From: Flavobacteriaceae bacterium
Lineage (GTDB): Bacteria > Bacteroidota > Bacteroidia > Flavobacteriales > Flavobacteriaceae
Assembly (NCBI GenBank): GCA_024644725.1
Contig: JAHEHE010000028.1
Span: 1 to 32,293, forward strand
DNA length: 32,293 bases
Direction: 5' to 3'
Shown here: piece by piece, positions 1,183 to 32,012 of the stretch
Layout: each line of letters starts with the position of its first letter
How positions within the stretch are numbered: position 1 is the stretch's first letter
The notes under the pieces: generated by a model
What the model was told of the DNA's origin: nothing
Databases searched by the model: none
What the model saw: only the letters and a program-made list of their open reading frames with translations
Program-made: the position numbers and the translations under genes

Positions 1183-2040
1183 ATGCGACCTGTAATTCTC
1201 TTCTCTCTTATAAGTTTAATGCATGTTTCCTTGTACAGTCAGGCTCTGGTGAGTCAGGCCCCGGAGAGTCTGATCGCACCCAATGAGAGGTTTGACAAAG
1301 ACCATGATCTTCTACTGCTGTTTTATGATTGTAAAACTGACGTGGACGATCTGCATTCGGCTGCCGCATTCACCACCCTGAGTTCAAATAGAGAGTACGC
1401 ATCTTTGTCTTATCACGCGGTTGCGGGGACCTATGGAATCCAGGAAGGCCTTTACGTGCCTCCCGAAACTCTTTTTGAGCTCGCTTTTGGGGATAACTGG
1501 TCGGATGCCCATGCTGACTTCTCAAACGCCTCGGATGAGGTCAGCCTGATCGCCAAAAGAACCCTGGAACAGGGAGGCAATGTCTGGATTGCTGAAGCCG
1601 GGCAGTCCGATTTCACAGCAGAGGTAGTCAAAAAAATTCAGGTATTGCTTCCTGATTTGAATACAAGGGAGCGAATTCACGTCGTACAGCACAGTGATTG
1701 GAACGAAGAAGTTACATCCCCCGAAAGCCTGGCGTTTGTAAAACAAAACACAGCCTATTACAAGATCCCGGATGGAAATGTCGTCGGAAACGGCACTCCA
1801 GGGTTCCGGTCGCCCAATTATACGAAATGGGAAAAGCGCATCAAGGATCCTCACCTGAAACAGATCTGGGAGCTCGCTGTTGAACTTGGAAACGAGTACA
1901 ACGGCAAAGAAGGCCGATATGACAACGAAGCTGTATCCGCAGGTGGTCTGGACTTCTCGGATACGTCAGAGGTTTGCTGGATACTTGGCCTTGAGAAGAT
2001 CAAAGACACCAAAAAATTCTTCAAACGTTTTGGAAAATAA
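1183..2040 (+). CDS. Exported nucleoside-hydrolase-like protein
   Basis: The 285-residue product has an N-terminal signal peptide (about residues 1-20, ending SLYSQ). Soon after comes a hydrophobic strand followed by DCKTDVDDLHS (residues 49-59). This resembles the Asp-rich calcium-binding motif at the N terminus of inosine/uridine nucleoside hydrolases (DxDxxxDD) and of the related DUF1593 group. A C-terminal GGLDFSDTSEVCWIL segment (about 254-268) could supply the late Asp ligand. The fold call is therefore nucleoside-hydrolase-like. The spacing of the Asp residues is not the textbook one, so substrate and activity are uncertain. It is transcribed away from the phosphatase gene and converges with the desaturase-like gene, whose stop lies 21 bases beyond its own. 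Confidence 0.6.
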   Translation: MRPVILFSLISLMHVSLYSQALVSQAPESLIAPNERFDKDHDLLLLFYDCKTDVDDLHSAAAFTTLSSNREYASLSYHAVAGTYGIQEGLYVPPETLFELAFGDNWSDAHADFSNASDEVSLIAKRTLEQGGNVWIAEAGQSDFTAEVVKKIQVLLPDLNTRERIHVVQHSDWNEEVTSPESLAFVKQNTAYYKIPDGNVVGNGTPGFRSPNYTKWEKRIKDPHLKQIWELAVELGNEYNGKEGRYDNEAVSAGGLDFSDTSEVCWILGLEKIKDTKKFFKRFGK

Positions 2041-2061
2041 TCAGAAAGCTACCCTACGTAA

Positions 2062-2817
2062 TTAACCCTCATATTCTGTTTTCATCAAGCGGTCCCAAAA
2101 GGTGAAATAGAGCCCGAAGTTCTTGTTGGCCCTCCGGTGGTGGATGTCGTGGTGCGTGGCTCCGATCACATATTTTCTGAACTTGTCGAAACTGGGTTTG
2201 CCCGGATACACCTCCACCCCAGCATGATTGATAATGGCCGAGACCGTCATGATCAAAAGCACAATGAGGATCGCTATCGGATGCATCGGGACAAGCACCA
2301 AAAGAATGGGCACAATGATCGCTTGCAAAAAGGATTCCACCGGATGAAACGAGAATGAGGTCCAAACGGTGGTGTTGACACTCTGATGATGCGCATTGTG
2401 CACCTTGATCAACCATCTTGAGTGGTGCATCCACTTGTGCAACCAGTAGTAATACGTGTCGTGCAACAAAAGAAAGATCGCTATGCTGATGGGCACGTAC
2501 CACAGGGGGTATTGAAAGGGATCGGAATAAATTTGGGTATAGTTTTTTTGCCAAAGCCAGATCAAACCTATGGTCACTGCCCCAAAAACGAAAGTGCTGT
2601 AAATGGAAAGCTTCAGCTCCCTTTTAATCTGATCCCGTGTAGGCATCTTTCGCGTCAAAACCTTATTGCCGTACTTTTCTTTGAAAAGAATCAGAAACAC
2701 TCCATAATACAGCCCCGACATGAAGAAATAACGGATCAGGAGAATCGCCAGTATGCCTCCGTAGAGAATCAGCAAAGTCCCGAAATCGGTTAGATCAATG
2801 TTATAAATGTCTTCCAT
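2062..2817 (-). CDS. Sterol desaturase / fatty acid hydroxylase superfamily membrane protein
   Basis: This 251-residue integral membrane protein has hydrophobic segments at about 13-45, 70-88, 108-118 and 165-198. It carries the di-iron histidine clusters of the fatty acid hydroxylase superfamily: HDTYYYWLHKWMHH (119-132), HNAHH (140-144), an isolated FHPVE His (158) and HHDIHH (222-227). These enzymes use a non-heme di-iron centre at the cytoplasmic face of the membrane to hydroxylate or desaturate lipids, sterols or carotenoids. The exact substrate is not readable from the sequence, and carotenoid or sphingolipid modification are as likely as sterol chemistry in this phylum. The family assignment is firm because all histidine boxes are intact and in order. 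It is a single gene with 102 bases before the next minus-strand gene. Confidence 0.9.
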   Translation of the reverse strand: MEDIYNIDLTDFGTLLILYGGILAILLIRYFFMSGLYYGVFLILFKEKYGNKVLTRKMPTRDQIKRELKLSIYSTFVFGAVTIGLIWLWQKNYTQIYSDPFQYPLWYVPISIAIFLLLHDTYYYWLHKWMHHSRWLIKVHNAHHQSVNTTVWTSFSFHPVESFLQAIIVPILLVLVPMHPIAILIVLLIMTVSAIINHAGVEVYPGKPSFDKFRKYVIGATHHDIHHRRANKNFGLYFTFWDRLMKTEYEG

Positions 2818-2919
2818 GTCGTGGCAGACAAAAATAACACAATTCTCCTGTGTATCCTCGTCTTCCTCTGAGAAGATAGATCAGAAATCTAATTGATGAA
2901 TCAGATGGGTCGAATCTGT

Positions 2920-3693
2920 TTATTCGGTAATCGACATCACTCTTTCGTAAATGATGCGACGCTCGAAACCATTGGGTGTAAGCTCATCCATTTTCGTCTT
3001 GTCGATCACATCGTTCCATCCGGCTGCATTCATGGAGTTGGACGCAGTTTCTGTGAACCGAAGATAATCAAGCGCATCGTTGAGCGATTTGAATCCATCC
3101 ACGGTAAAAACCGAGAATCTGGCTTTGTGACCCGCAGGATAGATCGCGGATGACATGCCCCAATAGGTCATATTGTTTAAAATGTTGTCTATGCTTGCCT
3201 GGTGCAGGGGTTTCCAGAGTTCCCTGTTTTCCTGGATGAAGGCCGCCAGGTCGGTGGGCTTGGCATAGTTGACTAGTGCATAGGTATAATCCCCTGGAAT
3301 TTGATCTTCCGATTGGACATAGTAGTCATAAGTGGTCGTTGTAAAAGAATTGGTCTCAATGTCTTCGGGCTTGACATCTCCAATGGCATCCATGTTGTCA
3401 TTCCATACTTTTGAAGGATCCATCTGGTCAATATTTTCATACGTGTTGACAAAGACATAATTCGGAATTGACTCGTCATTGCCGATTGCTCCAACAACTC
3501 TCCAAAGCGACCAGGACATCATCTGACCTTTTTTGATCGCTGATTGAGCAACTTTTGACCAATGCTTGGTTTCTCTTTCCAAAAATTTTGCCTCGTGATC
3601 CGCAGGCACATGGCGGTATTGCAAGTAACTTATCTGTCCGTAAATCGACCCCGTTAAGAGAATTGCAATGATTATAAGACCTAGATTTTTCAT
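2920..3693 (-). CDS. Exported protein of unknown function, probably two alpha/beta-barrel lobes
   Basis: The 257-residue product begins with a clear signal peptide (MKNLGLIIIAILLTGSIYGQ) and has no further membrane segment. I do not recognise a named family. The mature part alternates strands and helices in two similar-looking lobes, one around residues 22-135 and one around 140-245. Each lobe has an aromatic strand such as YALVNYAKP followed by an amphipathic helix, which suggests a duplicated dimeric alpha/beta-barrel (ferredoxin-like) fold. That structural reading is inference. The open frame continues upstream to 3825, but the ATG at 3693 puts the signal peptide at the N terminus. The gene at 21572-22273 encodes a protein of similar design. 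Confidence 0.75.
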   Translation of the reverse strand: MKNLGLIIIAILLTGSIYGQISYLQYRHVPADHEAKFLERETKHWSKVAQSAIKKGQMMSWSLWRVVGAIGNDESIPNYVFVNTYENIDQMDPSKVWNDNMDAIGDVKPEDIETNSFTTTTYDYYVQSEDQIPGDYTYALVNYAKPTDLAAFIQENRELWKPLHQASIDNILNNMTYWGMSSAIYPAGHKARFSVFTVDGFKSLNDALDYLRFTETASNSMNAAGWNDVIDKTKMDELTPNGFERRIIYERVMSITE

Positions 3694-3842
3694 AATTAAG
3701 GGATGATAGTTAATAATAAATTCTCTTAAAGTTACTGATTTTTTTGAATTTCTGAAAGTCCAGGACAGGATGCTAACAGGTAATGACGAGTTGATTATCC
3801 CTAAATATGCAAGGATCAGGCCCATTATCGTTTATCAGACTC

Positions 3843-4817
3843 CTAATCGTTGACAGGATAATATGCCTCTTTGATTTGACGCCAGGTGACCAGTTCCACT
3901 TTCTCAGCTTTCAAAAGGTTCCTGCAGGCCTCACTGGTAAAAAAGTCAAAATCCTTTTGCCTCCACTCGTTTCCCCAGTCGGGGTGATCTATGTTCATCC
4001 CCTTCATTTCCTCGTTATCGTATGCCGTGTGGATTAAAAGCGTTGAAACCCCGGGTTTCAGATTTCTTATTGCATCGGAGTAATACGCCCCCACCCCTTT
4101 TGCGTATTCATCGGGCATTATCGTAAGGGCATCCGCCAAAACGGCTTTTACCTCATACTTCTGAAGTAGATCAGCAGGAAAATCCGCGGTGACCAAAACA
4201 GGCAATCGATAATTCTGGCCCATTTTAAGGTACAGCTCCATCAACTCAGGGGTTTGAAAAAGGCAGCCCATGTGGCTGTCGAGATGTGTCGGCACGAGAC
4301 CCATGGCATAGGCCCTGTCGATTTGTGCGCGCAATTCAGCCTCAGCCTCCACGATGTCAATCGAGGTGGAGCAATCCGCGAGAAAATAGCCGTGATCCCC
4401 GAGCAAACTGGAAACCTCATCAGTCGAACTCACCGGCCCCCATCGATAGTTCTTCCATTCGGAGGTGAGCACCAGGTGCAAACCGAAATCATGGGTATCG
4501 GGATGGGCTTTGGCATATTCGGCCACCTCCAGAACCCAGGGCGTCGGCATCATGACGCTGGCCGAATTGACCGAACCATGCTCAATAGCCTCAAAGGATG
4601 CTATGTTCTCAGAGTGAGATACCCCAAGGTCATCGGCATGAATGATCAGCAGGCGGGCATCAGCATCATATCCCAATCGGGTAGCCAGGTTTTCCTGGGC
4701 CAGCAAGGTCCCGTTTGAAAAAAGTATTGCAAGCAGCGCTGCAAATAAAACAAAATCATTCTGATGCTTTGAGGTCAAAAAGAGCCGTTCCATAAAATTG
4801 GTTTTCGATTTAGACAA
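3843..4817 (-). CDS. Exported ChbG/YdjC-family carbohydrate deacetylase
   Basis: The 324-residue product has a hydrophobic stretch at about 22-40 ending LLAQ, which looks like a signal peptide with a long basic N-region; an alternative start at Met9 would shorten that region. The mature domain shows the YdjC/ChbG signatures: LLIIHADDLGVSHSEN (57-72) with metal-binding Asp, FGLHLVLTSEW (His114), and THLDSHMG (177-184). This NodB-unlike TIM-barrel family removes N- or O-acetyl groups from sugars such as chitin oligosaccharides and uses a divalent metal. Export is unusual for Escherichia coli ChbG but common for Bacteroidota homologues, where it would act on imported glycan fragments. It is likely transcribed alone, ending 149 bases ahead of the next minus-strand start at 3693. 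Confidence 0.85.
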   Translation of the reverse strand: MSKSKTNFMERLFLTSKHQNDFVLFAALLAILFSNGTLLAQENLATRLGYDADARLLIIHADDLGVSHSENIASFEAIEHGSVNSASVMMPTPWVLEVAEYAKAHPDTHDFGLHLVLTSEWKNYRWGPVSSTDEVSSLLGDHGYFLADCSTSIDIVEAEAELRAQIDRAYAMGLVPTHLDSHMGCLFQTPELMELYLKMGQNYRLPVLVTADFPADLLQKYEVKAVLADALTIMPDEYAKGVGAYYSDAIRNLKPGVSTLLIHTAYDNEEMKGMNIDHPDWGNEWRQKDFDFFTSEACRNLLKAEKVELVTWRQIKEAYYPVND

Positions 4818-4948
4818 TGATTGTGAAATGAAAACCTAAAGTTAATGAAAAACCTCTGGTAGGGCACATCAACGAAAAAAACTAACCATCATAACTTAAC
4901 ATGGACTTTATCCCCCTCTAGCCCAATTATCTTCTTATTCGGTTTTTT

Positions 4949-6373
4949 TTATCTCTCCTCCAGGATTTTTCGATTCTTTATCGAGTATTCCCAGTGGGCA
5001 CCCATGTTCTTCCTCAGGTTTTCAGGAAGGTTCTCAATCGGAACGACAAGATCCGAGTCTACGGGCCAGTTTTCCAACAGTTCGGGATGATACCCTTCGG
5101 GATAGTACAGTTTAGGATCGATCTGCTTCTCCCTGACAAACGGCTCCTGGATCTCCTCCCGGCTGGTTGTTGGAAGAGGCACCACAAGCTGCCCATTGTC
5201 AAAATTGAACTGTGGAGCTCTCGTATTCGGATAGTCAGGCAAAATTCCTTCACGGACCCAAATAGACTCCTTGGTGATGTTCACCACTATACCATCCGGA
5301 GCCCCGAATCGGTAGGGACCCTTCCAATGCTCCCTGACTTCGGCTACCACCTCTTCATTGAGAAAGGGATCGAAGTCCTGGTGCGTGGTCATTAACATCC
5401 GCGGTTGAATCTTGTTCGCGACATATCCCACGCCATAGGCCGGCGAATGGTGGGTGTCGATCGTGTATCTGGCCAAAAATGGTGGCACTCCCTGAACCCC
5501 AGAGTTTATCTCAACCACTTCTTGCTGCAGTTCGGTGATGTACAGGTCAACCCCTTTTGCAAATTCAACATCGAGCTCATTGGGCCTGCCATCTCCTGTC
5601 CAGACCACAGACATCCCATTCCAATCCAAACGGTACGCCGAGGCACCGTCCTTGGCATGAGATCGCTGCCAATGTGTGATCTTGACTCCGTTTTTCTCAT
5701 ACACCACTCCTCCATTGTCTCTGAAGTCAAATTCATTTACCTGGATGTCCCAGCCTTTGCCACTTGGAAAAACACTGAAAGCATCCTGGTGCCATCCGGT
5801 CATCATTTTCATGCCTTCCACCATTGTAGCCGTACCGTATTCCGGAGTTCTTCCAGACGGGCCGTGAACTGTCAGAGGCTGATGCCAGCCTCCGTTCCAT
5901 GTCCTGAACATCCATAAATAAGGCAAAGCGCCGAAATGATCCACGTGCAAGTGAGTGATGAACACGTGGTTGATTTGATTCAAAGCGACTCGGGCTGCAG
6001 TGTAGTTGGCAACCGAGCCTTCCCCAAGGTCAAAGACAAAGCTGTCTCCGTTCCCCAATTCTACAAAAATGGAAGTATTCATCTGCCCGGGTCGGATCAA
6101 TGGAGCCGTACCCATAAAAGTCACCCTGATTTCCTCGGGCTGAACTTCTTCTGTTCCTGGAAACCAGTTGGCAGCACTTTTCATCCAGGGCATGGGTCTG
6201 ACACCGTCGAAAAGCAATCCTTCTTTCCATCGTCCATTTGGAACTCCACCCGTCAGGGTTTTTACCATGTCTTCTTGTGATGAAGGCTCTTGTTCTTCTT
6301 GCGCCTGGTTGGAAAAAGGAATAAAAATTGAAAAAGCCAGGAAATATAAAAAGAGCTTTGAAATTCGTTTCAT
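4949..6373 (-). CDS. Exported metallo-beta-lactamase-fold hydrolase
   Basis: The 474-residue product has a signal peptide (residues 1-24, ending SNQAQ). It then carries an MBL-fold domain with the zinc-binding THLHVDHFG motif (His141, His143, Asp145, His146), a later WTGDGRP segment (Asp261) and MTTHQDF near 328-334 as the terminal His. The RVTFMGTA...SIFVELGNGDSFVFDLGEGS opening resembles the arylsulfatase/RNase Z-like branch of the superfamily. A C-terminal region of about 120 residues rich in Pro and acidic residues follows the catalytic domain. The substrate is unknown. It diverges from an AraC-type regulator gene across a 90-base gap, a common layout when the regulator controls its neighbour. 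That link is inferred from position only. Confidence 0.85.
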   Translation of the reverse strand: MKRISKLFLYFLAFSIFIPFSNQAQEEQEPSSQEDMVKTLTGGVPNGRWKEGLLFDGVRPMPWMKSAANWFPGTEEVQPEEIRVTFMGTAPLIRPGQMNTSIFVELGNGDSFVFDLGEGSVANYTAARVALNQINHVFITHLHVDHFGALPYLWMFRTWNGGWHQPLTVHGPSGRTPEYGTATMVEGMKMMTGWHQDAFSVFPSGKGWDIQVNEFDFRDNGGVVYEKNGVKITHWQRSHAKDGASAYRLDWNGMSVVWTGDGRPNELDVEFAKGVDLYITELQQEVVEINSGVQGVPPFLARYTIDTHHSPAYGVGYVANKIQPRMLMTTHQDFDPFLNEEVVAEVREHWKGPYRFGAPDGIVVNITKESIWVREGILPDYPNTRAPQFNFDNGQLVVPLPTTSREEIQEPFVREKQIDPKLYYPEGYHPELLENWPVDSDLVVPIENLPENLRKNMGAHWEYSIKNRKILEER

Positions 6374-8695: not shown

Positions 8696-10648
8696 TCATT
8701 TGGACAACCGAAGCGTAGGAAATATCTTTTCTATTCCCTCGACTTCGCGCAAAGCCTTAGAGGATCTGTCCTTAATTCCTTTGCAGGGCAGATACGGATC
8801 ATCTATATCCATGGCAATCCGGGAAAGCTCGAGAGCGTAATCATTCTCACCCACAGCCGCAGCTGCAATAGCCAGGTTCGCGGGAGGGGCGTTGTGCTCC
8901 TTGTACATGGCCTCCAATTCTCTGTAGATTTTTTGTGCCTCTTCTGCGACTCCCAGTTCCATGTAAATCGCCATCATTAAATTGAGGTTCCATGCATGGC
9001 GGTTCGAAGAACTCAGAGCGAGCTGACACTCATCCAAAGCTTTTTGATACTCGCCTGCACAAAGAAAGCAGTAACTCAAGGTGTAGCGGGGAAGCATGGC
9101 GTTTGGTTCCAACTCCACAGCGTGCTGAGCCATCTCAATCGCCTCATCGACCTCATTTGCCGCTGCCAATACAAGTCCACAACACGAATACGCATAAGAA
9201 GACAGGGGGTCGTTTTCAATGGAGATTCTCGACTGTTCGATTCCTTCCTCAAATCGTTCCTGAACGTACGTCAATAAGAACAGAGCGTACCACACGCGTG
9301 CCTGCCCGTTCAACGGATTGATGGACAACGCTTTTTTAAATTCAATTTCGGCTCGTTCCGGATCCCTGTCATGAAGCAAAGCAATCAGGGCCATTGTGCA
9401 ACTGGATTCTGCCAGGTCCGGTCCGTATTTGATTGCATTTTGTGAAGCCGGTATGGCCTTTTTCCAACAAACCGAAGGCGACAGGTAACCGTGAAAACTC
9501 AACATGACATAAGTATCTGCCAGGCCGGAAGAAGCGAGGGCATATGTCGGATCGATGGCGAGGGCCGATTCAAAACATCGAAGTGCCTCGTACAGCGCCA
9601 TTCCCCTTTTGTAGTAAAGTGATCTTCCTTTGCAATAGAGCTGAAAAGCTTCAACGTCTTGCGTCTGCTCTCGGATCTTCGGAGCAACAGTATTGCCCAG
9701 CAGGGTGACCTGAAGTTGGTTCGCAATCTCATGACCGATCTCATCCTGAATCTGAAAGATGTCCACCAGGTCCCGGTCATACTTCTTCGACCAGAGATGA
9801 AAACCGGTTGAAGCCTCTATCAACTGGGCCGTAATTCGAACTCTTTTCCCGAATTTTCGGACACTTCCTTCCAGAATATTGCCGACCCCAAGTTTGTCCC
9901 CAATCTGGCGAAGGTCTTCGTTTTTTCCTTTGAAGCTGAAGCACGAGGTTCTGCCGGCAACTTTCAAACCCGGCAACTGAACTATCGTATTGATAATTTC
10001 CTCAGAAATACCCTCACAGAAAAAGTCCTGCTCGGCGTCACTGCTCATGTTGACAAACGGAAGAACGGCTATCGAATTTTGATTTCGATTCAGAGCTTGT
10101 GAGGTATGGGATTTACGCAGATCTTTTTTATCGTTTTCAAGCTCGTCGCAATTGACATTGACATTGTAAATCCGGACCGGCTGCTTGACATGCTTCAGGG
10201 ACTCCTCCTTTACAAATTCAACTTCTATTCCCTTTTTGTTTTGAATGTTGCGCTGAACAGAATCAGAAACCCAAATGCCTCCGACCGGAGCAATCGACTG
10301 AATTCGCGAAGCGATATTGACCCCGCTTCCAAAAACATCATCACCCTGGTTTACAATTTCCCCCTGGTGGATCCCAATCCTTAGATCCAAATGCTCCTCG
10401 TTCTCACAGGCCCGTTGAATGTACCCCGCAGAGTAAATGGCATCCGTCACGGTTGGGAAGCTGGCCAGGATGCCGTCCCCCATCTCCTTTAAAAACTTCC
10501 CCTTGTATTTTCTGATCACCTCCCCGTGAATGGCACGATTTCGCTCAAGCATTTCGAATGCCGCATCTTCATCCTTATCCATCAAAGCAGTATATCCGAC
10601 AATATCGGTGAACATGATTGCGGCCAGGTGTCGAGAGCTATGAGGCAT
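8696..10648 (-). CDS. Class III adenylate/guanylate cyclase with TolB-like and TPR domains
   Basis: The 650-residue soluble protein has three parts. Residues 6-165 form a class III cyclase catalytic domain with every key residue in place: metal-binding Asp15 (FTDIVGY) and Asp58 (MGDG), base-recognising Lys54 and Asp104, and transition-state Asn111 and Arg115 (GSGVNIASR). Residues 190-315 match the TolB-like module usually found in such proteins (SIAVLPFVNMSSDAEQ ... FCEGISEEI ... ILEGSVRKFGKRVRITAQL). From about 330 to the end are TPR repeats, with recurrent A/L pattern and segments such as FESALAIDPTYALASSGLADTY. No membrane segment is seen, so it is likely cytoplasmic. The Lys/Asp pair predicts ATP as substrate and cAMP as product. 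The gene stands alone on this strand. Confidence 0.9.
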   Translation of the reverse strand: MPHSSRHLAAIMFTDIVGYTALMDKDEDAAFEMLERNRAIHGEVIRKYKGKFLKEMGDGILASFPTVTDAIYSAGYIQRACENEEHLDLRIGIHQGEIVNQGDDVFGSGVNIASRIQSIAPVGGIWVSDSVQRNIQNKKGIEVEFVKEESLKHVKQPVRIYNVNVNCDELENDKKDLRKSHTSQALNRNQNSIAVLPFVNMSSDAEQDFFCEGISEEIINTIVQLPGLKVAGRTSCFSFKGKNEDLRQIGDKLGVGNILEGSVRKFGKRVRITAQLIEASTGFHLWSKKYDRDLVDIFQIQDEIGHEIANQLQVTLLGNTVAPKIREQTQDVEAFQLYCKGRSLYYKRGMALYEALRCFESALAIDPTYALASSGLADTYVMLSFHGYLSPSVCWKKAIPASQNAIKYGPDLAESSCTMALIALLHDRDPERAEIEFKKALSINPLNGQARVWYALFLLTYVQERFEEGIEQSRISIENDPLSSYAYSCCGLVLAAANEVDEAIEMAQHAVELEPNAMLPRYTLSYCFLCAGEYQKALDECQLALSSSNRHAWNLNLMMAIYMELGVAEEAQKIYRELEAMYKEHNAPPANLAIAAAAVGENDYALELSRIAMDIDDPYLPCKGIKDRSSKALREVEGIEKIFPTLRLSK

Positions 10649-12214: not shown

Positions 12215-15200
12215 ATGAAAATCTGTCCTCATTGCCATCAAGAAAATCCTGACCAGGCAAAGTTTTGTCTCGGTTGCGGCACCAAAATCAGTCCTTTGCA
12301 AAAGGAGACTGGATCCGAATCTGCTGATCAGGGAGAGCGTCGGCAGATGACCCTGTTTTTTTGCGATCTGGTGGATTCCACCCCGCTTTCTGAACGCATG
12401 GACCCGGAAGATTACCGTCAGATGATCCTCGATTACCACGATGTGGCCGAAAAGGTGATCAACCTCCATGGTGGGAAAGTAGGCAATTATATCGGAGACG
12501 GCCTGCTGGTCTATTTTGGCTATCCAAAAGGTTTGGAAAACTCAGCGATCACAGGGGTCCAGACGGCCATAGAGGTCATTGAAGCCCTGGATGAAGTGAG
12601 GCAACGCTGGGAGGACCCGGAGGCCAATATCTACATCAGGATTCGTGTGGGCATGCACACCGGACTGGTCATCGTAGACGATCATCTGGCCCTTGGCGAG
12701 ACGGTCAACCTGGCCGCACGCCTCGAGGGCCTGGCTCCTCACAATGGAATCGTGGTTAGTCCGCAGACGCTGGACTTGATCAAAGGCTGGTTCAAGGTCA
12801 AAAGCATTGGGAAAAAGTCACTCAAAGGCATCAGCGAGCCCCTGGAAGTCTTCGAAGTAACCGGTGAAACGGGAGCCAGGACCCGTCTCGACATCTCCAA
12901 ATTCAAAGGCCTTTCTCCCTTGGTGGGACGCGAAGACGAACTCAAAAGACTGCGCAAGAGTTGGGCCCTTGCCAGAGATGGAAAAGGAAGTTCCCTCATG
13001 CTCCTGGGCGAGGCCGGGATAGGAAAGTCACGACTTTCAGATAAACTGGAAGCAGAAATTCAGCGTGATCCGGGAAATCTCTTGCTCGAAGCACGCTGCT
13101 CAATGCATCATACTAACAGTGCTTTCTTTCCCTTGCTGGAAGTCATCGAGACGGATCTACTGGGCATCAGGGCATCGGATGAGAACCTGCAGCGAATAAA
13201 TAAACTCAAGCGCTTTTTCAAGGAGCATGATTTGGGCAGTGAGGAGATGATTCCTTTGTTGGCCGAATACCTGGGAATCTCCTCGGAAACTTACCCACCT
13301 TTACAAATAAGTCCTTTTGCGAAAAGGGCAAATATCATGGCAGGCATTTCTGACGTTTTTCTTCAACTCGCAAGCGAAAAGCCCCTTCTGATGGTTATTG
13401 AAGACCTGCATTGGGCAGATGCATCCACTCTTGAATGGCTGCAATCCTTTAAGGCAGAACTGGCAGACAAGACCCTGTTTCTGCTGTGCACTGCTCGTCC
13501 TCATCCAAAAGGGGAACCGAAAAAATTCCCTTCTATCAAGACTGTTGACCTCAACCGGCTCGATGCTGATAACATGAAACAAATCTGCCTCCACCAGGCC
13601 CGAGGAAAAAGACTTCCAAAAGAGGTGCTCAATAAGATTGTCGAAAAAACCGAAGGCGTACCCCTGTTCGTAGAAGAATTGACCAAAATGGTCCTGGAAT
13701 CGGATCGCTTGCAGGAAAAAAAAGATCACTATGAGCTCATTGGACCTCTGTCAAAAATGGATATTCCTTCCACCCTTCAGGATTCCTTACTGGCTCGTTT
13801 GGACCAGCTCAAAGATGTCAAAGACATTGTACAAATGGGCTCCGTGATCGGTCGTGAGTTCTCTATGGCTATGTTAGCAGCAGCGCTTCCTGAAGAGAGA
13901 AAAAGACTGAAAGATAACATCGAAAAGCTGCTGAATGCTGAAATATTCCAAAAAGCCGAAAAAGATAATGAACCTGGATATCAGTTCAAACACGCCCTGA
14001 TACAGGATACGGCATATCGGTCCATGCTCAGGACCCGCCGCCGGCAAATGCACCAGAAAGTAGCCTCGGTACTCATAGAGAAGTTCAATGAGGTATGTGA
14101 GACCCAGCCCGAGCAGCTCGCCTATCACCTGACAGAAGGAAATCAACCCGAACTGGCGATTCCGCAGTGGTTAAAGGCCGGGCAACTCGCTAAAATGACC
14201 AACGCTTCCCAGGAGAGTATTGCCCACCTGAAAAAGGGCCTGGAATTGTTACCCGAACTTAATGATGAAACGGCAAGAAAAAATCTCGAACTGGACCTGT
14301 TATTGACTCTAGGCGGAACTTATATGGTATCGCATGGATTCCCTCATCCATTGGTAAAAGAAACCTTTAACACCGCAAGAGATATAGCCCAATCCCTAGC
14401 GGTGAGTCCCAAGCTGGCCCTTATTCAAATGGGTCTGCTGGGTTATTACTTCAACACCGAAGATTATGCGTCCTTTGATGAATTAGCCGATCACATGATG
14501 ACCCAAGCTGAAGATCCTGATAGCGGTTACTGGTTCGAATTAATCTCTACCCATTTCAAGGGAGTCGCTCTTGTTCGAGGCAACTTTGCTGAAGGAAACA
14601 GGCATTTCCAACATACCACTAATATGTTCGATCCATCAAAGCCCTTTAGGTGGGAACTTACACCGAGCGGATACCTTCCGTTTGCCACGAAAGGATGGTG
14701 GATGATCTGCTTGCAGGTCATGGGGTTAAACGACCAGGCCAAGAGAATTTCAACGGAACACCTGAATTCGAGGGAGGAATATAGGGATTCTGATTCCATG
14801 ACGCTTTACCATATTCATACGTTTCCGGCTTTGTACTACCTGGAAGCCAGAGAATGGAAAACAGCCCAAATCATTATGGAAAGGTATCTTCCTATTGTAA
14901 GAAAATTTGGAGACCCTGTATTTATTCTCACGGCTGAGGTCTACTATCACTTAGCCCTTTCATTTCAAGGACAGAAGCCCTCCTTTGAAAAGGTGGTTCA
15001 GATGATGGATGTCTGTTTTGAGATCGGCTTCAAGGCTTTTGCAGTAACCATGTCGTCTTTGGTCGCAGAAGGATATCTAAATGCAGATGACCCGGGTTCT
15101 GCACTAAGCTGGATTGAAAAAATTCTGGCACACGCAGAACAAACAGGGACTCATTTCGCAACAGCCGAATTGAACAGGCTGAAAGGAAGGAGTCTGAAGT

Positions 15201-15457
15201 TACTCGGCAAACCCGATGAAATTGTCGAACACCAATACAAAAAGGCCTTCGATCTGGCCAGAAAACAGGAGGCGAGGACCTTTGAAATCCGGGCTGCCAT
15301 GGATTTGGCTCTCCTTTGGGATCAGAAGGGACAGGGCAAAAAAGCTCACACCCTTCTTAAAAACAGCTATGAAGGGTTCACCGAAGGGTTCGATTCGGTG
15401 GATCTGGTTAAAGCGAAATCCCTGCTTCAGTCACTCGAGGCGCCTACCAAAACTTGA
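12215..15457 (+). CDS. Zinc ribbon / class III cyclase-like / AAA ATPase / TPR signalling protein
   Basis: The 1080-residue protein has four modules. Residues 1-25 form a zinc ribbon (CPHC at 4-7, CLGC at 18-21). Residues 43-215 are a class III cyclase homology domain with metal ligands Asp51 (FFCDLVDST) and Asp95 (IGDG) and transition-state Asn165 and Arg169. The base-selecting Lys is Asn91 and the second base-selecting residue is Leu158. Residues 230-640 are an ATPase of the STAND/AAA_16 type: VGRE start, Walker A LLGEAGIGKS (263-272), Walker B LLMVIEDLHWAD (391-402). The rest, about 640-1075, is helical TPR-like repeats. Such proteins are thought to be cytoplasmic signalling switches. Because both base-recognition residues are lost, cyclase activity is doubtful or of altered specificity. 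Confidence 0.88.
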   Translation: MKICPHCHQENPDQAKFCLGCGTKISPLQKETGSESADQGERRQMTLFFCDLVDSTPLSERMDPEDYRQMILDYHDVAEKVINLHGGKVGNYIGDGLLVYFGYPKGLENSAITGVQTAIEVIEALDEVRQRWEDPEANIYIRIRVGMHTGLVIVDDHLALGETVNLAARLEGLAPHNGIVVSPQTLDLIKGWFKVKSIGKKSLKGISEPLEVFEVTGETGARTRLDISKFKGLSPLVGREDELKRLRKSWALARDGKGSSLMLLGEAGIGKSRLSDKLEAEIQRDPGNLLLEARCSMHHTNSAFFPLLEVIETDLLGIRASDENLQRINKLKRFFKEHDLGSEEMIPLLAEYLGISSETYPPLQISPFAKRANIMAGISDVFLQLASEKPLLMVIEDLHWADASTLEWLQSFKAELADKTLFLLCTARPHPKGEPKKFPSIKTVDLNRLDADNMKQICLHQARGKRLPKEVLNKIVEKTEGVPLFVEELTKMVLESDRLQEKKDHYELIGPLSKMDIPSTLQDSLLARLDQLKDVKDIVQMGSVIGREFSMAMLAAALPEERKRLKDNIEKLLNAEIFQKAEKDNEPGYQFKHALIQDTAYRSMLRTRRRQMHQKVASVLIEKFNEVCETQPEQLAYHLTEGNQPELAIPQWLKAGQLAKMTNASQESIAHLKKGLELLPELNDETARKNLELDLLLTLGGTYMVSHGFPHPLVKETFNTARDIAQSLAVSPKLALIQMGLLGYYFNTEDYASFDELADHMMTQAEDPDSGYWFELISTHFKGVALVRGNFAEGNRHFQHTTNMFDPSKPFRWELTPSGYLPFATKGWWMICLQVMGLNDQAKRISTEHLNSREEYRDSDSMTLYHIHTFPALYYLEAREWKTAQIIMERYLPIVRKFGDPVFILTAEVYYHLALSFQGQKPSFEKVVQMMDVCFEIGFKAFAVTMSSLVAEGYLNADDPGSALSWIEKILAHAEQTGTHFATAELNRLKGRSLKLLGKPDEIVEHQYKKAFDLARKQEARTFEIRAAMDLALLWDQKGQGKKAHTLLKNSYEGFTEGFDSVDLVKAKSLLQSLEAPTKT

Positions 15458-25934: not shown

Positions 25935-26585
25935 ATGTTTGTTGGACATTTCGCTGTTGGCCTTTTAGCCAAAAAAAATGAAGACCAGCCTTCCCTGGCT
26001 ATGATGTTTATAGCTGTTCAATTGCTGGATTTGCTCTGGCCCGTTTTTATCCTCCTGGGTATAGAAACCATGTCTATTGATCCAGGAAATACAAGGCTGA
26101 CCCACCTGGATTTCGAGTATTATCCTTATTCTCATAGCCTTCTTATGGCAATTGTGTGGAGTTTGGCGCTAGGCTTGGGTTATTTCCTGTTCACAAAAAA
26201 CAAGAATGGATCAATGCTACTTGGGGCACTGGTATTCAGTCATTGGATACTGGATTTGATCACGCATCGACCTGATTTGCCTCTCTCCCCTTTTACAGAC
26301 ATAAAAGTGGGGTTTGGTCTTTGGAACTATCCAGTTGTCGAGATCATTCTTGAGTTACTGATCTTTGGTTTGGGCGCCTTTCTGTATTATAAGTCCCCTT
26401 GCTTCAAACGGAAAATAGCATTCTTGTTGTTGATGGCTTTTCTGTTGATTGTCCATTTGATGAACCTTTTTGGACCTCCCCCACCCGATACCATGGCAGT
26501 TGCCTGGTCTGCCAACCTCATGTGGCTCATCGTTCTCTGGGCCTGGTGGATCGAGAGAAAACCTCCTACTCGATCCAGCCCATGA
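25935..26585 (+). CDS. DUF457/YdjM-like membrane-bound metal-dependent hydrolase
   Basis: The 216-residue protein has about six hydrophobic helices. It opens with MFVGHFAVGLLAKK and has further polar residues in membrane segments: LLDLLWP, YSHSLLMA and SHWILDLITHRPDLPLSP. Such His/Asp clusters at helix ends are the signature of the DUF457 (YdjM/LexA-binding-inner-membrane) group, predicted to be zinc-dependent phospholipase C-like hydrolases. The function of this family is largely untested. It starts 42 bases after the amidotransferase gene and could belong to the same transcript. Its last 20 bases overlap the 3' end of the large glycosyltransferase fusion on the other strand. Confidence 0.8.
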   Translation: MFVGHFAVGLLAKKNEDQPSLAMMFIAVQLLDLLWPVFILLGIETMSIDPGNTRLTHLDFEYYPYSHSLLMAIVWSLALGLGYFLFTKNKNGSMLLGALVFSHWILDLITHRPDLPLSPFTDIKVGFGLWNYPVVEIILELLIFGLGAFLYYKSPCFKRKIAFLLLMAFLLIVHLMNLFGPPPPDTMAVAWSANLMWLIVLWAWWIERKPPTRSSP

Positions 26586-29500
26586 TGGCGTTGGCAACGA
26601 ACCGGGGCTCAGGAGGCAGCGAATAGATGTCTTTTTCGTAGTTCTTGTTGTAGGGTGAGATGTTCATGACCTTACCATCGACGACCAGGGTGCTGCTTCC
26701 TCCCGGATCGAAGCCCATGGCCTTGTGCATGCCGAACTTCAAAAGAATGTCGGCCATATCGAAATGGGTGGCGCCCACCGACTCACGGATTCTTCCATTC
26801 ACCATAAGGACCATGAGCTTCCCTTCTTTTGTGATTCCCACAGCGATCTTGGGCCCGCGCATGTCAGTAAAATCAAGACGGGCCGCCTGTGTACGGATGG
26901 AATTCGCGGTTTTCCAGCCCTCCTCCTCCATGTTCAGAATCTGCTTTCCTTGGTCGATGAGCATTGGGCCCGCTTCTATGGCATAGGATATTTCTTCCCA
27001 GCGGTAAGGCTTTTCAACAGGCTCCAGCATTTGAATTGCAAGTGACTTGTCTTCTTCAAACATTTGGGGCACAAACAACTTTTTAGGCACCGAGAGAGTC
27101 ACTCCCACGGGAATCAACGGAACTTGCTCCCCTGATTTTGTAGGAATGACTTGTTTAACCTTATTTCCGGCTACCCGCACGATGACGTTCCCATCTCCGG
27201 GGATGCTTTCCTCTTGAAAAGACAGGTCGTAAAAACTAGCCTCAGTGGTGCTGTGCCGATTGTAGTTCGCTGAAGAAAACTCAAGGGCATCGGATTCTGC
27301 TTTTACAAGGAATCCGGAGCGACTGTTGACTTTTCTGATGTCCACTTCGCCGTTCTTGTATATGATGAAAGCCGGCTTGTTGAAAAGAGGTGGGCAAAAA
27401 ACCTTGCCGTCCATGATCAATAAACCCAGGGGTGAACCGATGTAGGTCTCGGGCAATCCGAGCTTGCCCACCAGTTCGGGATTGAGAATATAACCTCCGT
27501 TCCAGGCCAGTTCAATTTTATGTGGGTTTTTGCTCTTTTTTCGATATTCCTTGACCAGGGCCGGTACATTCTTGGGTTTCTTTTTGGCAATGTGAGCCGC
27601 GAACTTCCAATTGAATTCCCGCGTATCTACCAGGGCTGACACCCCACTCCAGGGCAATCCGTCTTCGTAAACGCCTGAGGCGAATGACGACTTCACGCGT
27701 ACAACTTCCTCCCCCTCTTTCAACTCGTCCTTGATCTGCTTCAGAACCTTTACCACGGGGGTCCCTTTATCGGTTGCGTCCTCTGTTATCCTTCGAAACA
27801 ACTCTTCTTCCCCAATCTTCTCCCGGAGGTCTTTGAAAAGTTCGCTTTTCAAGGCTCTTTCAAAATCTTTGGCCGTCTGAACGGGGGTAGGATAAGCAAG
27901 TGTCGTACGTACACCTGCCGGTACAAACTGAATGAAACCACTGTCTTTGGGTATGCCCATGATCTTGGCAGTCAACTGATGCCCGACCTTTCCGATGTGG
28001 AAATGGTCGATCTCAATGATGTCGGTCATCATTGCAGCATATTCCCCGTTGGTTACTAGAAATCCTTTGGCCTCTTTGATCTCACGCAGTATTTTAACGG
28101 CCTTAGCCCCCATTTGAGGGAAATGAACTCCTTCTGACCATTGTCGTGTTTCCACGATCTGAACCACACCGCTCCTGTATAACAGACCTAACTCAGGCTC
28201 CTGTCCGCTCTCCAGGTACTCCTGAATATTCGCGCTGGAAAACCATTTTGTGATCCGGGGCTCATGGATGAAAATATAGACCTTCTCCAAATGCTTCCCT
28301 CTTTTTTCGAGAATCTCTGCTGTAAGCTCTTCCTGAATGGACAGCTTAAGCTGGGCGCGGATCGGTTGCAACACAAAATACTCCAGCTCATGCTTGATGT
28401 AGCGTCCCGGAAAATACCCCTTGGGCACATTTTCCTTCAATCTGCGCGTCAGCATCTTTCGGTTGTCGATCCCCAGGAAATTACTGTTGGTCAATTGGAA
28501 CAAAGCGAGCTCCCAGTCAGCAAAGAACTGCGGTGCCAGGGTCAGGTCACCCAGGTTCTTTGGTTTAAACACATCATTGTAGATCATATTGACCAGCCCT
28601 GTCAACTCCTGGTAGGTGAAAGCCTGGTAGGCAAAGGATACTTTATTCCTGTGCCTGTAAGCCAGTGCGTGGTCGTGTCGTATTGAGATCTCCCCGTCCA
28701 CATACCTGAAAATATCATCGATGGCATTGTAATATTCATGAATGAGTTCCAGATCCTTGTTGACCATATCCGGAATGTCGTTTTCCATCATCCGCGCATA
28801 ACGCATGACCATACCCCGGGTCAATTGCTCCTCAACCCTGAAAAAACTTGGGTCTATCAACGATTTCAGATAGAGCATAAAAGCGAGGCGACCATACCCT
28901 GGCAGATAGTGACGGGTTTTTCGATTGAGAATCGCATCGAGATCCTCATTGGTGAAGTTGACCAACTTGTTGTAGGATTTCAGCAGGTGGTCGAGTCGAG
29001 GGGAGACTTCTGACGTGTTGGCAGCCAGCTGCAAATGCAGTCGCTCCAGGACATAGCGGATGTTCTTCTCCAGCGACTCCAGGCTGAAACGCTCCTGGAT
29101 CACGTTTCGGTTGTGCGTTACATCGATCATCCGGTTCTGGGGATAGAACACGTGATCGCATATGCTCTGAGCCAATCGCTTCGGAACCTTGGAGCCTTTG
29201 AACTCCAAAACCTTCAGACGATGCTCTTCGTCCAGGTGACGCCCGATGACCTCGTCATAGACCTCCCGGGGTTCGTATTGCCTGCAAAAAATTGGGGTGC
29301 CACAGGCTGCCGCTTCAATGATCGGAAGACCCCGACCTTCGGTCTGACTGGGCAGCAGGATCAAAGAAGCCACGTCATACAACTGCTCGATGTCCAGAGG
29401 CTTTTTGTACTTTTTCTTGAATTCATTCTTGTCGAACTCGCTGAACAGGAACCCGAGAAGAACACGGGTCCTGAATTCTTTAGGCAGCTTTTCGAGGAAC

Positions 29501-30756
29501 TTGTTGAAATCCCGCTTCAGGTCGTGGTAATAATCCTGCTGACCATGCGGGATCGGCCCGGAAACGATCAGAGACAGCTTCAATTGCGGGTTCGTTATGA
29601 ATTTCTCATAAAAAGACTCATAAGAAAACAGCCGCTTGATCAATTTGAAATTGAGTTCAATGGATTTTCGGCTGATCACCCTTGTTGGCTGCAGAAATAC
29701 AATGTTGTTGTTGACAAAATCAAATTTCTTGACCGTTTTGTATCCCAACAGTATGGGCTTCAGAGAGCGCTCGCTCTTGGTGTGACGCGCCGCCGTATGT
29801 ACGGTAATCGTGTCTTTTTTATTGGCGAAAATGCTCGACACCTGCATGAAGGCCTTGATGATGTCCCGCTTGCTCATTCGGTGCGATTTCATGTCGACTG
29901 CCGTTCCGATCAGAGCCACGTTCGCCGGATTGTGACCGTTGACATTGATCAGGTGGTTCTGCTGGATCCGGTTGATGTTCATATTCATCCAGGAACGACT
30001 CTCCCAGGGGTAGACCATCTCAATCAATGAAAAGAACTCTCCCACGTGGGAATTGTGGAAAAAGAAATCTCTCGGTCCCCTTTTGAGGCCTTTCTTTTTG
30101 ATCTCGACCTCGCGGCTGCCTCCTTCCCAATAAAAATCGTGGTTGTTGTTGATCACCGGAAGCCCGAGATACTCAGAGATCAATACCGTCGCCAGGGCCA
30201 GCGAGACATTCCCGGGATTTGAACAGACGTTGATCAGGTACAGAAGAGCAATGTCGTTTTCTTCGATGTAGTTGCCCAGGGCCTCAACGAGAAAGAGAAC
30301 TTCGTTCCAGAACTTGCCGATCAGCTCATTGTATTCGACACTGCCGCGTTCCATTTTGATCTTGAAAAAGTCCTCGTAAAGCGGCCAGGCATCAAAGGCC
30401 TCCATCTCAGGGATCACCTTTTTGAAGGATCCTTCAGGGATCAACTCATCGGCTTCCTCTTTGATTTCCCCGGCTATGAAATGGATCGGAATCTCCGGAT
30501 AGATGTTCTTGAAAGTCTTGGCATATTTTTCCGTTTCAACCGTTATCCCGTCTATGGTGTAATAAAAAGTGATAAAGGCAAGTCCTCCTTTTTCGAGGTA
30601 CCGGTCAAAATCTTTGGCATCCCCCTCAAATGCCGGTTTGAATTTTCTTTCTTTGAACCGGTCCAGGAAGAGGCCCAGGTCAAACCAAGTGTTTATTTCT
30701 TCTTTGTTTAATTCTTCTAATACATCTTTGATCTTCAGTCTTCCTTTTTCAATCAT
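26566..30756 (-). CDS. Glycosyltransferase (GT-B) fused to a C-terminal phosphodiester glycosidase (NAGPA) domain
   Basis: This 1396-residue cytoplasmic-looking protein has no signal peptide. Residues about 58-570 form a GT4-like GT-B glycosyltransferase: YTIDGITVETEKYAK (66-80), NNHDFYWEGGSRE (204-216) and the nucleotide-sugar site SQTEGRGLPIIEAAACGTP with Glu473 and Glu481. Residues about 580-1020 are unrecognised, first helical (580-830), then mixed with HFHIGKVGHQL (918-928). Residues about 1030-1396 match the NAGPA/phosphodiester glycosidase family: LAWNGGYI (1083-1090), GLLIMDGKVFCPP, AIEAGPMLI (1259-1267), RGPKIAVGIT and the hallmark FDPGGSSTLVVDGKV (1349-1363). The family uncovers or cleaves sugar-1-phosphodiesters. 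The fusion suggests one polypeptide that both transfers a sugar and trims a phosphodiester. It follows the partner glycosyltransferase gene by 11 bases. Confidence 0.85.
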   Translation of the reverse strand: MIEKGRLKIKDVLEELNKEEINTWFDLGLFLDRFKERKFKPAFEGDAKDFDRYLEKGGLAFITFYYTIDGITVETEKYAKTFKNIYPEIPIHFIAGEIKEEADELIPEGSFKKVIPEMEAFDAWPLYEDFFKIKMERGSVEYNELIGKFWNEVLFLVEALGNYIEENDIALLYLINVCSNPGNVSLALATVLISEYLGLPVINNNHDFYWEGGSREVEIKKKGLKRGPRDFFFHNSHVGEFFSLIEMVYPWESRSWMNMNINRIQQNHLINVNGHNPANVALIGTAVDMKSHRMSKRDIIKAFMQVSSIFANKKDTITVHTAARHTKSERSLKPILLGYKTVKKFDFVNNNIVFLQPTRVISRKSIELNFKLIKRLFSYESFYEKFITNPQLKLSLIVSGPIPHGQQDYYHDLKRDFNKFLEKLPKEFRTRVLLGFLFSEFDKNEFKKKYKKPLDIEQLYDVASLILLPSQTEGRGLPIIEAAACGTPIFCRQYEPREVYDEVIGRHLDEEHRLKVLEFKGSKVPKRLAQSICDHVFYPQNRMIDVTHNRNVIQERFSLESLEKNIRYVLERLHLQLAANTSEVSPRLDHLLKSYNKLVNFTNEDLDAILNRKTRHYLPGYGRLAFMLYLKSLIDPSFFRVEEQLTRGMVMRYARMMENDIPDMVNKDLELIHEYYNAIDDIFRYVDGEISIRHDHALAYRHRNKVSFAYQAFTYQELTGLVNMIYNDVFKPKNLGDLTLAPQFFADWELALFQLTNSNFLGIDNRKMLTRRLKENVPKGYFPGRYIKHELEYFVLQPIRAQLKLSIQEELTAEILEKRGKHLEKVYIFIHEPRITKWFSSANIQEYLESGQEPELGLLYRSGVVQIVETRQWSEGVHFPQMGAKAVKILREIKEAKGFLVTNGEYAAMMTDIIEIDHFHIGKVGHQLTAKIMGIPKDSGFIQFVPAGVRTTLAYPTPVQTAKDFERALKSELFKDLREKIGEEELFRRITEDATDKGTPVVKVLKQIKDELKEGEEVVRVKSSFASGVYEDGLPWSGVSALVDTREFNWKFAAHIAKKKPKNVPALVKEYRKKSKNPHKIELAWNGGYILNPELVGKLGLPETYIGSPLGLLIMDGKVFCPPLFNKPAFIIYKNGEVDIRKVNSRSGFLVKAESDALEFSSANYNRHSTTEASFYDLSFQEESIPGDGNVIVRVAGNKVKQVIPTKSGEQVPLIPVGVTLSVPKKLFVPQMFEEDKSLAIQMLEPVEKPYRWEEISYAIEAGPMLIDQGKQILNMEEEGWKTANSIRTQAARLDFTDMRGPKIAVGITKEGKLMVLMVNGRIRESVGATHFDMADILLKFGMHKAMGFDPGGSSTLVVDGKVMNISPYNKNYEKDIYSLPPEPRFVANAIMGWIE

Positions 30757-30767
30757 TTATCTGTTCA

Positions 30768-32012
30768 TTAAAACGTAAAAAGCGTGTTAAGTTTCTCTTC
30801 GAGCACCTCGTAGGAAAAATGCTTCTTGCCCACCTCAAAATTGTATTCGCCAATTTCTCGACAGCGCACCGGGTCGTATATGATCTCAGCCATTTGCTTT
30901 ACTTTATCATCGGTCAAGTGGCTGTCTTCGATCATGACGGTTTCAAAGCCCTTGTTGCCGATGTCCTGCATGTAAACCGGCTTGTAGTTGTTCACAAAAA
31001 TCGGCTTTTTTGCCAGGACGCACTCGACAAAAGCGTTTCCAAAACCTTCATACGTACTGAAATAGGTGCAGGCCCGACCATGCGCGTAAACATCCGACAG
31101 GTCTTTGTGATCCAGCACCTTATGGGATGCAAAAATCACCTGCCTCGAAAGATTCAGATCGTGGATCTGATCGATCAATTCGTTGAAGTATTCCTTGTTC
31201 TCGTCATCATGGTTGTTGCCCGTAATGACCAGTTTCAACTTGTCGTCGTTGAGCTTGTCGATCAGCGAAATCGCAGTTTCAATTCCTTTTCGGCGCACAA
31301 TGCGGGTCACCTGCAGCAGGGCAATCTCACCTTCCCTGACGCCGACATCCCTCAGAAAGAATTCATTCTCCGGGGTCGGAATCCCATAGGGTCGGTTGAA
31401 ATCCATGACGTTGGGCACCAAAAGTGCTTTTCTGCCAAAGCGATTTTTGAACGTTTCCACCCCAAAAGTATTGATCACAGCGTGCCTCACATCGGGAAGC
31501 AATAGCGGAAAGTTCTCATCCACGTATTGATTTACCTCCGGGTGAACCGACATGTAACGCTCACCGCGCTCCCAATGAAAGTCGTGATCGTGGCTCACTA
31601 TGGGCAAGGCCGTCCGTTTGATGAGTTTTTTGATCGCCACCCCCATCGACAGCTGACAGGGAAGAGCCGAGGCGTTTTCCGACAGAATCACTTCAATCTT
31701 TTTTGCCTTGACCCAGCGAAGGAGCCTTTTCTCAATCATGTCCGACCATCTCTCGATGTGCTCCAGTAAAGGGTTCGGACCTTCATCCGGCTCGAAGAAA
31801 GCCTTGCGCTGCTCCCATTCCGCCTCCGCGGAAAAAAAGGACAGGGCCGGAAACAAGGTATGATGCTTGCGATCCATTTTCCAGGACTCAAATTCTCCGG
31901 ACATGATAAACACCTCATGACCGAGCTTTTTCAATATGTCAATCCATTTCTCGGTCTCCAGGGCTACGCCATCCACACCTCCGATTCTACCAATGATAAT
32001 ACCTATTCTCAT
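30768..32012 (-). CDS. GT4 family glycosyltransferase (mannosylglucosylglycerate-synthase-like)
   Basis: The 414-residue product is a complete GT-B enzyme. It has an N-terminal Rossmann start (MRIGIIIGRIGGVDGVALETEKW), the acceptor-side motif SHDHDFHWERGERY (140-153), a nucleotide-binding LLQVTRIVRRKGIETAISL (232-250) with the usual Arg and Lys, and the EX7E motif YEGFGNAFVE (Glu322 and Glu330). From memory, the HDHDFxWER motif is shared with GT4 enzymes such as mannosylglucosylglycerate synthase, which build glycerate-based compatible solutes. That assignment is tentative. The DG[VI]xxETEK motif also occurs in the downstream fusion protein, so the two are distant homologues. It heads a two-gene operon. 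Confidence 0.88.
   Translation of the reverse strand: MRIGIIIGRIGGVDGVALETEKWIDILKKLGHEVFIMSGEFESWKMDRKHHTLFPALSFFSAEAEWEQRKAFFEPDEGPNPLLEHIERWSDMIEKRLLRWVKAKKIEVILSENASALPCQLSMGVAIKKLIKRTALPIVSHDHDFHWERGERYMSVHPEVNQYVDENFPLLLPDVRHAVINTFGVETFKNRFGRKALLVPNVMDFNRPYGIPTPENEFFLRDVGVREGEIALLQVTRIVRRKGIETAISLIDKLNDDKLKLVITGNNHDDENKEYFNELIDQIHDLNLSRQVIFASHKVLDHKDLSDVYAHGRACTYFSTYEGFGNAFVECVLAKKPIFVNNYKPVYMQDIGNKGFETVMIEDSHLTDDKVKQMAEIIYDPVRCREIGEYNFEVGKKHFSYEVLEEKLNTLFTF

Follow-up and report, generated by a model that had tools for sequence, protein, structure and literature searches.

The NAGPA (DUF2233) family of phosphodiester glycosidases, PF09992, includes the human uncovering enzyme of lysosomal sorting, BACOVA_00430 and Slr0280. 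Synthase-phosphatase fusions are known in osmolyte pathways of the trehalose- or sucrose-phosphate type. Mannosylglucosylglycerate synthase (NF041101) is one of the glycosyltransferases of the GT4 type, and the DUF89 family (PF01937) consists of damage-control metallophosphatases, SPAC806.04c being presumably the fission-yeast Duf89. The passages of PMC9352595 that concern this family link At2g17340 (1xfi) to DUF89 and describe two Asp residues as essential for phosphatase activity in the characterised enzymes. As for NAGPA, passages in PMC12419801 and PMC11488536 mention it in proteins that are assembled from cell-surface domains and extracellular domains for ligand binding.

The protein described here has something in common with each of these systems. 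It is encoded in the window, by which is meant the whole stretch of 32,293 nucleotides from a Flavobacteriaceae bacterium that was analysed, and its gene lies at 26566-30756 on the minus strand as a single open frame of 1396 amino acids; the plus strand of the same interval contains stops throughout. To our knowledge, the three putative activities of this fusion are not known together, and no published description of the protein or of a fusion between a glycosyltransferase and NAGPA was found in open-access full texts. The window also encodes two long proteins (8696-10648, minus strand, and 12215-15457, plus strand), each of which starts with a class III adenylate/guanylate cyclase domain, followed by TPR repeats in one and by an AAA_16 ATPase domain in the other. 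In addition, a gene for a YdjM-like membrane protein (25935-26585, plus strand) runs antisense to the fusion gene and shares 20 bases with its 3' end, an arrangement which is also seen at locus L041.

Three modules in one chain

An earlier note on this DNA, which did not give the strand, had read the gene as one protein joining a glycosyltransferase to an NAGPA-type domain. This is real: the frame lies exactly at 26566-30756, and every motif that had been named is found in the translation, namely NHDFYWEGG (residues 205-213), the EX7E pair Glu473/Glu481, WNGGY (1085-1089), AGPML (1262-1266) and DPGGSSTLV (1350-1358). The two-part architecture proposed there holds for both named ends but overlooks a DUF89-like middle module at about residues 576-1020, that is, the fusion is three modules in one chain, not two, in the order GT4, DUF89-like fold and NAGPA fold. 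A scan of named genomes gave 190 relatives, of which the best 80 were studied, and these together with the window's own protein make up the 81 fusion proteins referred to below.

Module 1 (29032-30756, minus strand) extends from residue 1 to about residue 575, the borders being approximate, and is a glycosyltransferase of the GT4 (GT-B) type. The Glycos_transf_1 profile, PF00534, matches the fusion at residues 450-495 only (E 5.3e-7, 29.8 bits against a cut-off of 26.4), which together with the EX7E spacing of E473 and E481 agrees with the GT4-type N-terminus of the earlier note; the same profile is matched at E ≤ 1 by 11/11 members of an 11-member alignment. The catalytic GT4 motifs are intact, E473, E481, H206-D207, R359, R363 and K364 being present in 81/81 fusion proteins. 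Like mannosylglucosylglycerate synthase and other GT4 enzymes, module 1 has the GT4 motifs, and NF041101 is the best NCBIfam match both of module 1 and of the glycosyltransferase encoded next to it, the partner; all 52 members of the module 1 alignment match it at E ≤ 0.001, and the window's own genome has no NF041101 matches besides the fusion and the partner. Unlike the NF041101 enzymes, module 1 bears two extra modules, and the scores of 46.9 bits for the fusion and 206.9 bits for the partner both fall far below the equivalog cut-off of 640. In PHROGs, only general glycosyltransferase and NAGPA-region matches were obtained for the fusion. Another long glycosyltransferase frame (L141, 1217 amino acids) has glycosyltransferase domains only.

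Module 2 (27697-29031, minus strand; about residues 576-1020) contains the blocks SLIDPSFFR and HDH..YRHR, which are invariant or nearly so among the 81 fusion proteins. No convincing Pfam match was found to residues 560-1045 in any of 61 members, and a PDB profile search with the module gave chance matches only. Its fold was recognised from AlphaFold2 models. With the model of residues 560-1045 (mean pLDDT 85.8), all eight Foldseek matches at E ≤ 1e-3 are DUF89 phosphatases (1xfi, 4.6e-6), and these are the module's only significant matches. A second model of residues 560-1396 (pLDDT 86.7, pTM 0.83) gave 29 matches at E ≤ 1e-3, of which ranks 1-15 are NAGPA-type, 5h3k and 6ozd being classed so by profile match, and ranks 16-29 are DUF89-type, with noise after them. 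According to these models, module 2 resembles DUF89 in fold only. Sequence kinship between the two was considered and rejected: hhalign against a DUF89 profile of 15 proteins (from 18 matches found) gave a probability of 0.1%, or 0.04-0.7% with sub-profiles, and PF01937 was absent at E ≤ 10 from the 61 members among the families listed (25 of 36). Furthermore, matching the strands manually gave no equivalent of the catalytic Asp pair of DUF89; the strand order, read by hand and not by superposition, puts the variable residues 831-832 and H878 at the DN and D sites. A profile search of 247 phylum genomes for a stand-alone module 2 gave the window's own protein and one weak match (G530, E 0.005, 30 positions) in a frame that, on visual inspection, resembles a PAS sensor kinase.

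Module 3 (26569-27696, minus strand; about residues 1021-1396) has the NAGPA fold. PF09992 matches residues 1235-1372 with E 4.2e-20 and 73.1 bits against a gathering cut-off of 25, a significant match within the C-terminal part of about 370 residues that had been assigned to this family, and the Foldseek match of the 560-1396 model to 5h3k has an E value of 1.8e-22. The profile is found at E ≤ 1 in 10/11 alignment members, the eleventh (L028) ending before the core. Like NAGPA/DUF2233 proteins, the fusion has the WNGGY-type and AGP motifs and keeps D1350, N1365 and the near-invariant R1385. Among 148 phylum genomes surveyed, NAGPA occurs in 50, at 65 places, and the window's frame is the sole one longer than 1000 amino acids, the others having 239-848. 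As a separate observation, locus L142 has a 1272-amino-acid frame (1212-5030, minus strand) with NAGPA, Golvesin_C and calcineurin-like phosphoesterase (Metallophos) domains, a hydrophobic N-terminus and no glycosyltransferase domain, which makes it another fusion of NAGPA with an enzyme.

The partner gene and the cellular location

The partner gene (30768-32012, minus strand) encodes a mannosylglucosylglycerate-synthase-like GT4 protein of 414 amino acids and ends 11 bp upstream of the start of the fusion gene on the same strand. The profile of the partner aligns with module 1 over 408 columns (hhalign probability 99.7, E 2e-25), and by this comparison the two are paralogues. Searched by profile against the PDB, the partner had no match at E ≤ 1e-5. 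In 395 genomes of the class, the partner is found at E ≤ 1e-100 in eight, all of which have the fusion, and eight of the nine genomes with the fusion also have the partner, the ninth fusion being a contig-edge fragment. One genome (G405) has a partner relative of 35% identity (E 5.9e-51) without the fusion. Among the 81 loci, 42 have the partner immediately upstream in the same orientation as the fusion, 18 have it downstream in the opposite orientation and one has it downstream in the same orientation, and 20 are without it within the flanking DNA covered. Where at least 1.4 kb is covered on both sides, the partner is present in 45/51 loci, in 33 of them immediately upstream in the same orientation and in 12 downstream in the opposite one. 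Of the loci covered for 1.4 kb or more on the upstream side and 9 kb or more on the downstream side, 32/35 have it; in the exceptions (L082, L108 and L114), the coverage exceeds 5 kb on the upstream side and is about 10 kb on the other. This co-occurrence of the fusion with the adjoining GT4 gene makes the coupled pathway that had been suggested for the protein likely.

Outside the fusion-partner pair, the flavobacterial flanks are variable, and no pathway genes other than the partner were seen to recur across lineages in the neighbourhoods compared. The Bacteroidales loci (L076, L079, L083, L088 and others) share a recurrent, housekeeping-like neighbourhood read by eye as hemW, ruvB, nadA and pheS, with the partner on the opposite strand. 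An attempt to deduce the pathway from neighbouring genes failed, the flavobacterial flanks being variable and the Bacteroidales neighbours being of the housekeeping kind.

The fusion differs from NAGPA/DUF2233 proteins in being without an export signal and in carrying the NAGPA fold C-terminal to a GT4 and a DUF89-like module. A hydropathy cut-off, which is a crude test and was applied to unequal lengths, finds a strongly hydrophobic segment in the first 60 residues of one of the 81 fusion proteins (L086) and in the first 90 residues of 37 of 42 other Bacteroidota NAGPA frames, in keeping with the absence of a signal peptide which the earlier note had read from the window's protein. A 19-residue stretch of module 1 (residues 184-202) is borderline hydrophobic (1.85); 60/81 members reach a hydropathy of 1.8 somewhere, 57 of them near this stretch. 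It looks like a part of the glycosyltransferase core, but the fusion may contact the membrane through it.

The altered core and the candidate reactions

The reading which we tentatively place first is that of a cytosolic three-module enzyme acting with the adjoining GT4 in successive glycosylation, its modules 2 and 3 handling a phosphorylated intermediate. The two paralogous GT4 enzymes would add sugars in sequence to a small acceptor to give a soluble or lipid-linked glycoside, and the DUF89-like and NAGPA-like modules, being part of the same chain as module 1, would bind and process the phosphorylated acceptor or intermediate; such an acceptor or intermediate is suggested because a phosphate-handling fold and a phosphodiester-glycosidase fold are present on one chain. 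The fused processing may, by analogy, work like that in the synthase-phosphatase fusions, with a chemistry other than that of canonical NAGPA. The likeness is that a GT-B synthase is joined to a phosphatase-like module, but the phosphatase-like fold is another one and the fusion has an NAGPA-fold module in addition. The fusion and its partner would then form a glycoside-making unit of two genes, with a distant relationship to mannosylglucosylglycerate synthase.

In the other Bacteroidota NAGPA frames, the core reads PR, (D/E)GR and DGGGS in 42/42, the second motif being DGR in 40 and EGR in two; these 42 frames come from 43 loci (L170 was missed), two pairs being the same place, which leaves 40 distinct places. 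The fusion family departs from this core, with which it aligns without gaps, at three positions, and PK (K1303), NGR (N1320) and DPGGS (D1350) are found in 81/81. In other words, the NAGPA hallmarks described in the earlier note are genuine as regards profile and fold, with three positions of the core unlike those usual in the family, and canonical phosphodiester-glycosidase chemistry cannot be assumed for module 3 because the core differs at these positions in every member. Asn also occupies the acidic position in 5h3k (Slr0280), a homologue of solved structure; therefore, the change to Asn is not unique to the fusion. In addition, residues around the core are invariant in 81/81 (W1085-Y1089, A1262-P1264, W1281, R1293, R1322, G1328-H1331 and others), and the last 100 residues have the highest mean column conservation of the protein (0.79, against 0.47-0.71 elsewhere). 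Taken together, the invariance of the substituted residues and the best-conserved C-terminus argue for a working site rather than decay, as judged from the alignment.

The main rival is a pseudo-enzyme in which only the GT4 module is catalytic and modules 2 and 3 are scaffolds for ligand sensing, acceptor holding or dimer formation. We consider it rather unlikely, though it draws on the same core, of which three positions are replaced in every member, and on the middle module, in which no counterpart was found of the Asp pair that is essential in the characterised DUF89 members covered by the passages of PMC9352595, the variable 831-832 and H878 standing at those sites in the manual strand order. 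Against it, the invariant W1085-N-G-G-Y, W1281, R1293, R1322 and H1331 around the core are more than a scaffold needs, and the Asn at the acidic position is shared with 5h3k.

Still somewhat less likely, in our estimation, is a new three-site glycan enzyme which would combine GT4 transfer, phosphate handling by the DUF89 fold and a re-purposed cytosolic NAGPA-fold site with a new reaction, and which with its partner would make an undescribed glycoside or osmolyte. Examples of such a reaction would be the hydrolysis of an unusual sugar phosphodiester and transglycosylation with it as the donor.

The model of the earlier note was that the glycosyltransferase makes a glycosyl-phosphodiester, from which canonical NAGPA then removes a capping sugar in the cytosol. 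A genuine NAGPA homologue in sequence and fold is indeed joined to a genuine GT4 module, but GT4 enzymes make glycosides, not phosphodiesters, and nothing in the analysis points to a glycosyl-phosphodiester product. Moreover, the core Arg, Asp/Glu and Gly, kept in all the other frames, are Lys, Asn and Pro throughout the fusion family, and the model leaves the DUF89-like module without a role; we regard it as improbable.

Distribution and biological meaning

The whole protein is present in 8/22 genomes of the genus searched, the window's own included, with 79-92% identity, and a full-length copy is absent from the sample of 15 genomes of other genera of the family and 23 from the rest of the order. 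Among the 395 class genomes, there are nine carriers including the window's own, G089 with only a contig-edge fragment, and in G312 the match is confined to the NAGPA part. In 395 genomes of the phylum, the fusion is found only in the window's own genome, the other nine matches being NAGPA parts. All of the best 80 of 190 loci have one uninterrupted frame with the same module order; 77 are essentially full-length and three are clipped by contig ends (L077, L101 and L105). That an assembly or annotation error has joined separate genes has next to no chance of being right, even though the window's genome is a draft in 161 contigs, since the same frame is intact in the named loci and in seven other genomes of the genus, one of which (G011) consists of a single contig; the joining of two genes by assembly can be excluded.

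Carriers among the best 80 of 190 are mostly marine-named Bacteroidota (Lutimonas, Winogradskyella, Lutibacter, Flavivirga, Algibacter, Maribacter and Marinifilum), the closest named relative of the window's fusion being that of Lutimonas saemankumensis, and single metagenome-assembled carriers are labelled Calditrichota, KSB1, Planctomycetota, Fermentibacteria and others. The fusion is also carried by L114 and L068, whose records are titled DPANN archaeon and Gammaproteobacterium, respectively; in the tree, L068 groups with a record labelled Calditrichota, and L114 with some labelled KSB1 and Planctomycetota, and the titles of L114 and L068 may be binning errors. Plasmids and phages gave no match to the fusion at E ≤ 1e-10 and viral contigs had no stretch matching the six peptide patterns, and a mobile-element origin was dropped on these grounds.

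Passages of PMC3694870 describe mannosylglucosylglycerate as an osmolyte that occurs in Petrotoga and in a marine planctomycete, Rhodopirellula baltica. Since the compound is an osmolyte and the carriers of the fusion are mostly marine-named, an osmolyte-like product is a reasonable first guess by analogy; no direct tie of the fusion or partner genes to mannosylglucosylglycerate was found.

The fusion is thus a conserved putative enzyme of 1400 residues for which no description was found in the open-access literature. Carriers in Winogradskyella, Lutibacter, Maribacter, Marinifilum and Flavivirga are cultured, and therefore the fusion is testable. It is also a natural experiment on which residues of the NAGPA core are essential and, if the three-site enzyme with a new reaction were true, marine Bacteroidota and scattered other lineages would make a glycoside or osmolyte that has not been described.
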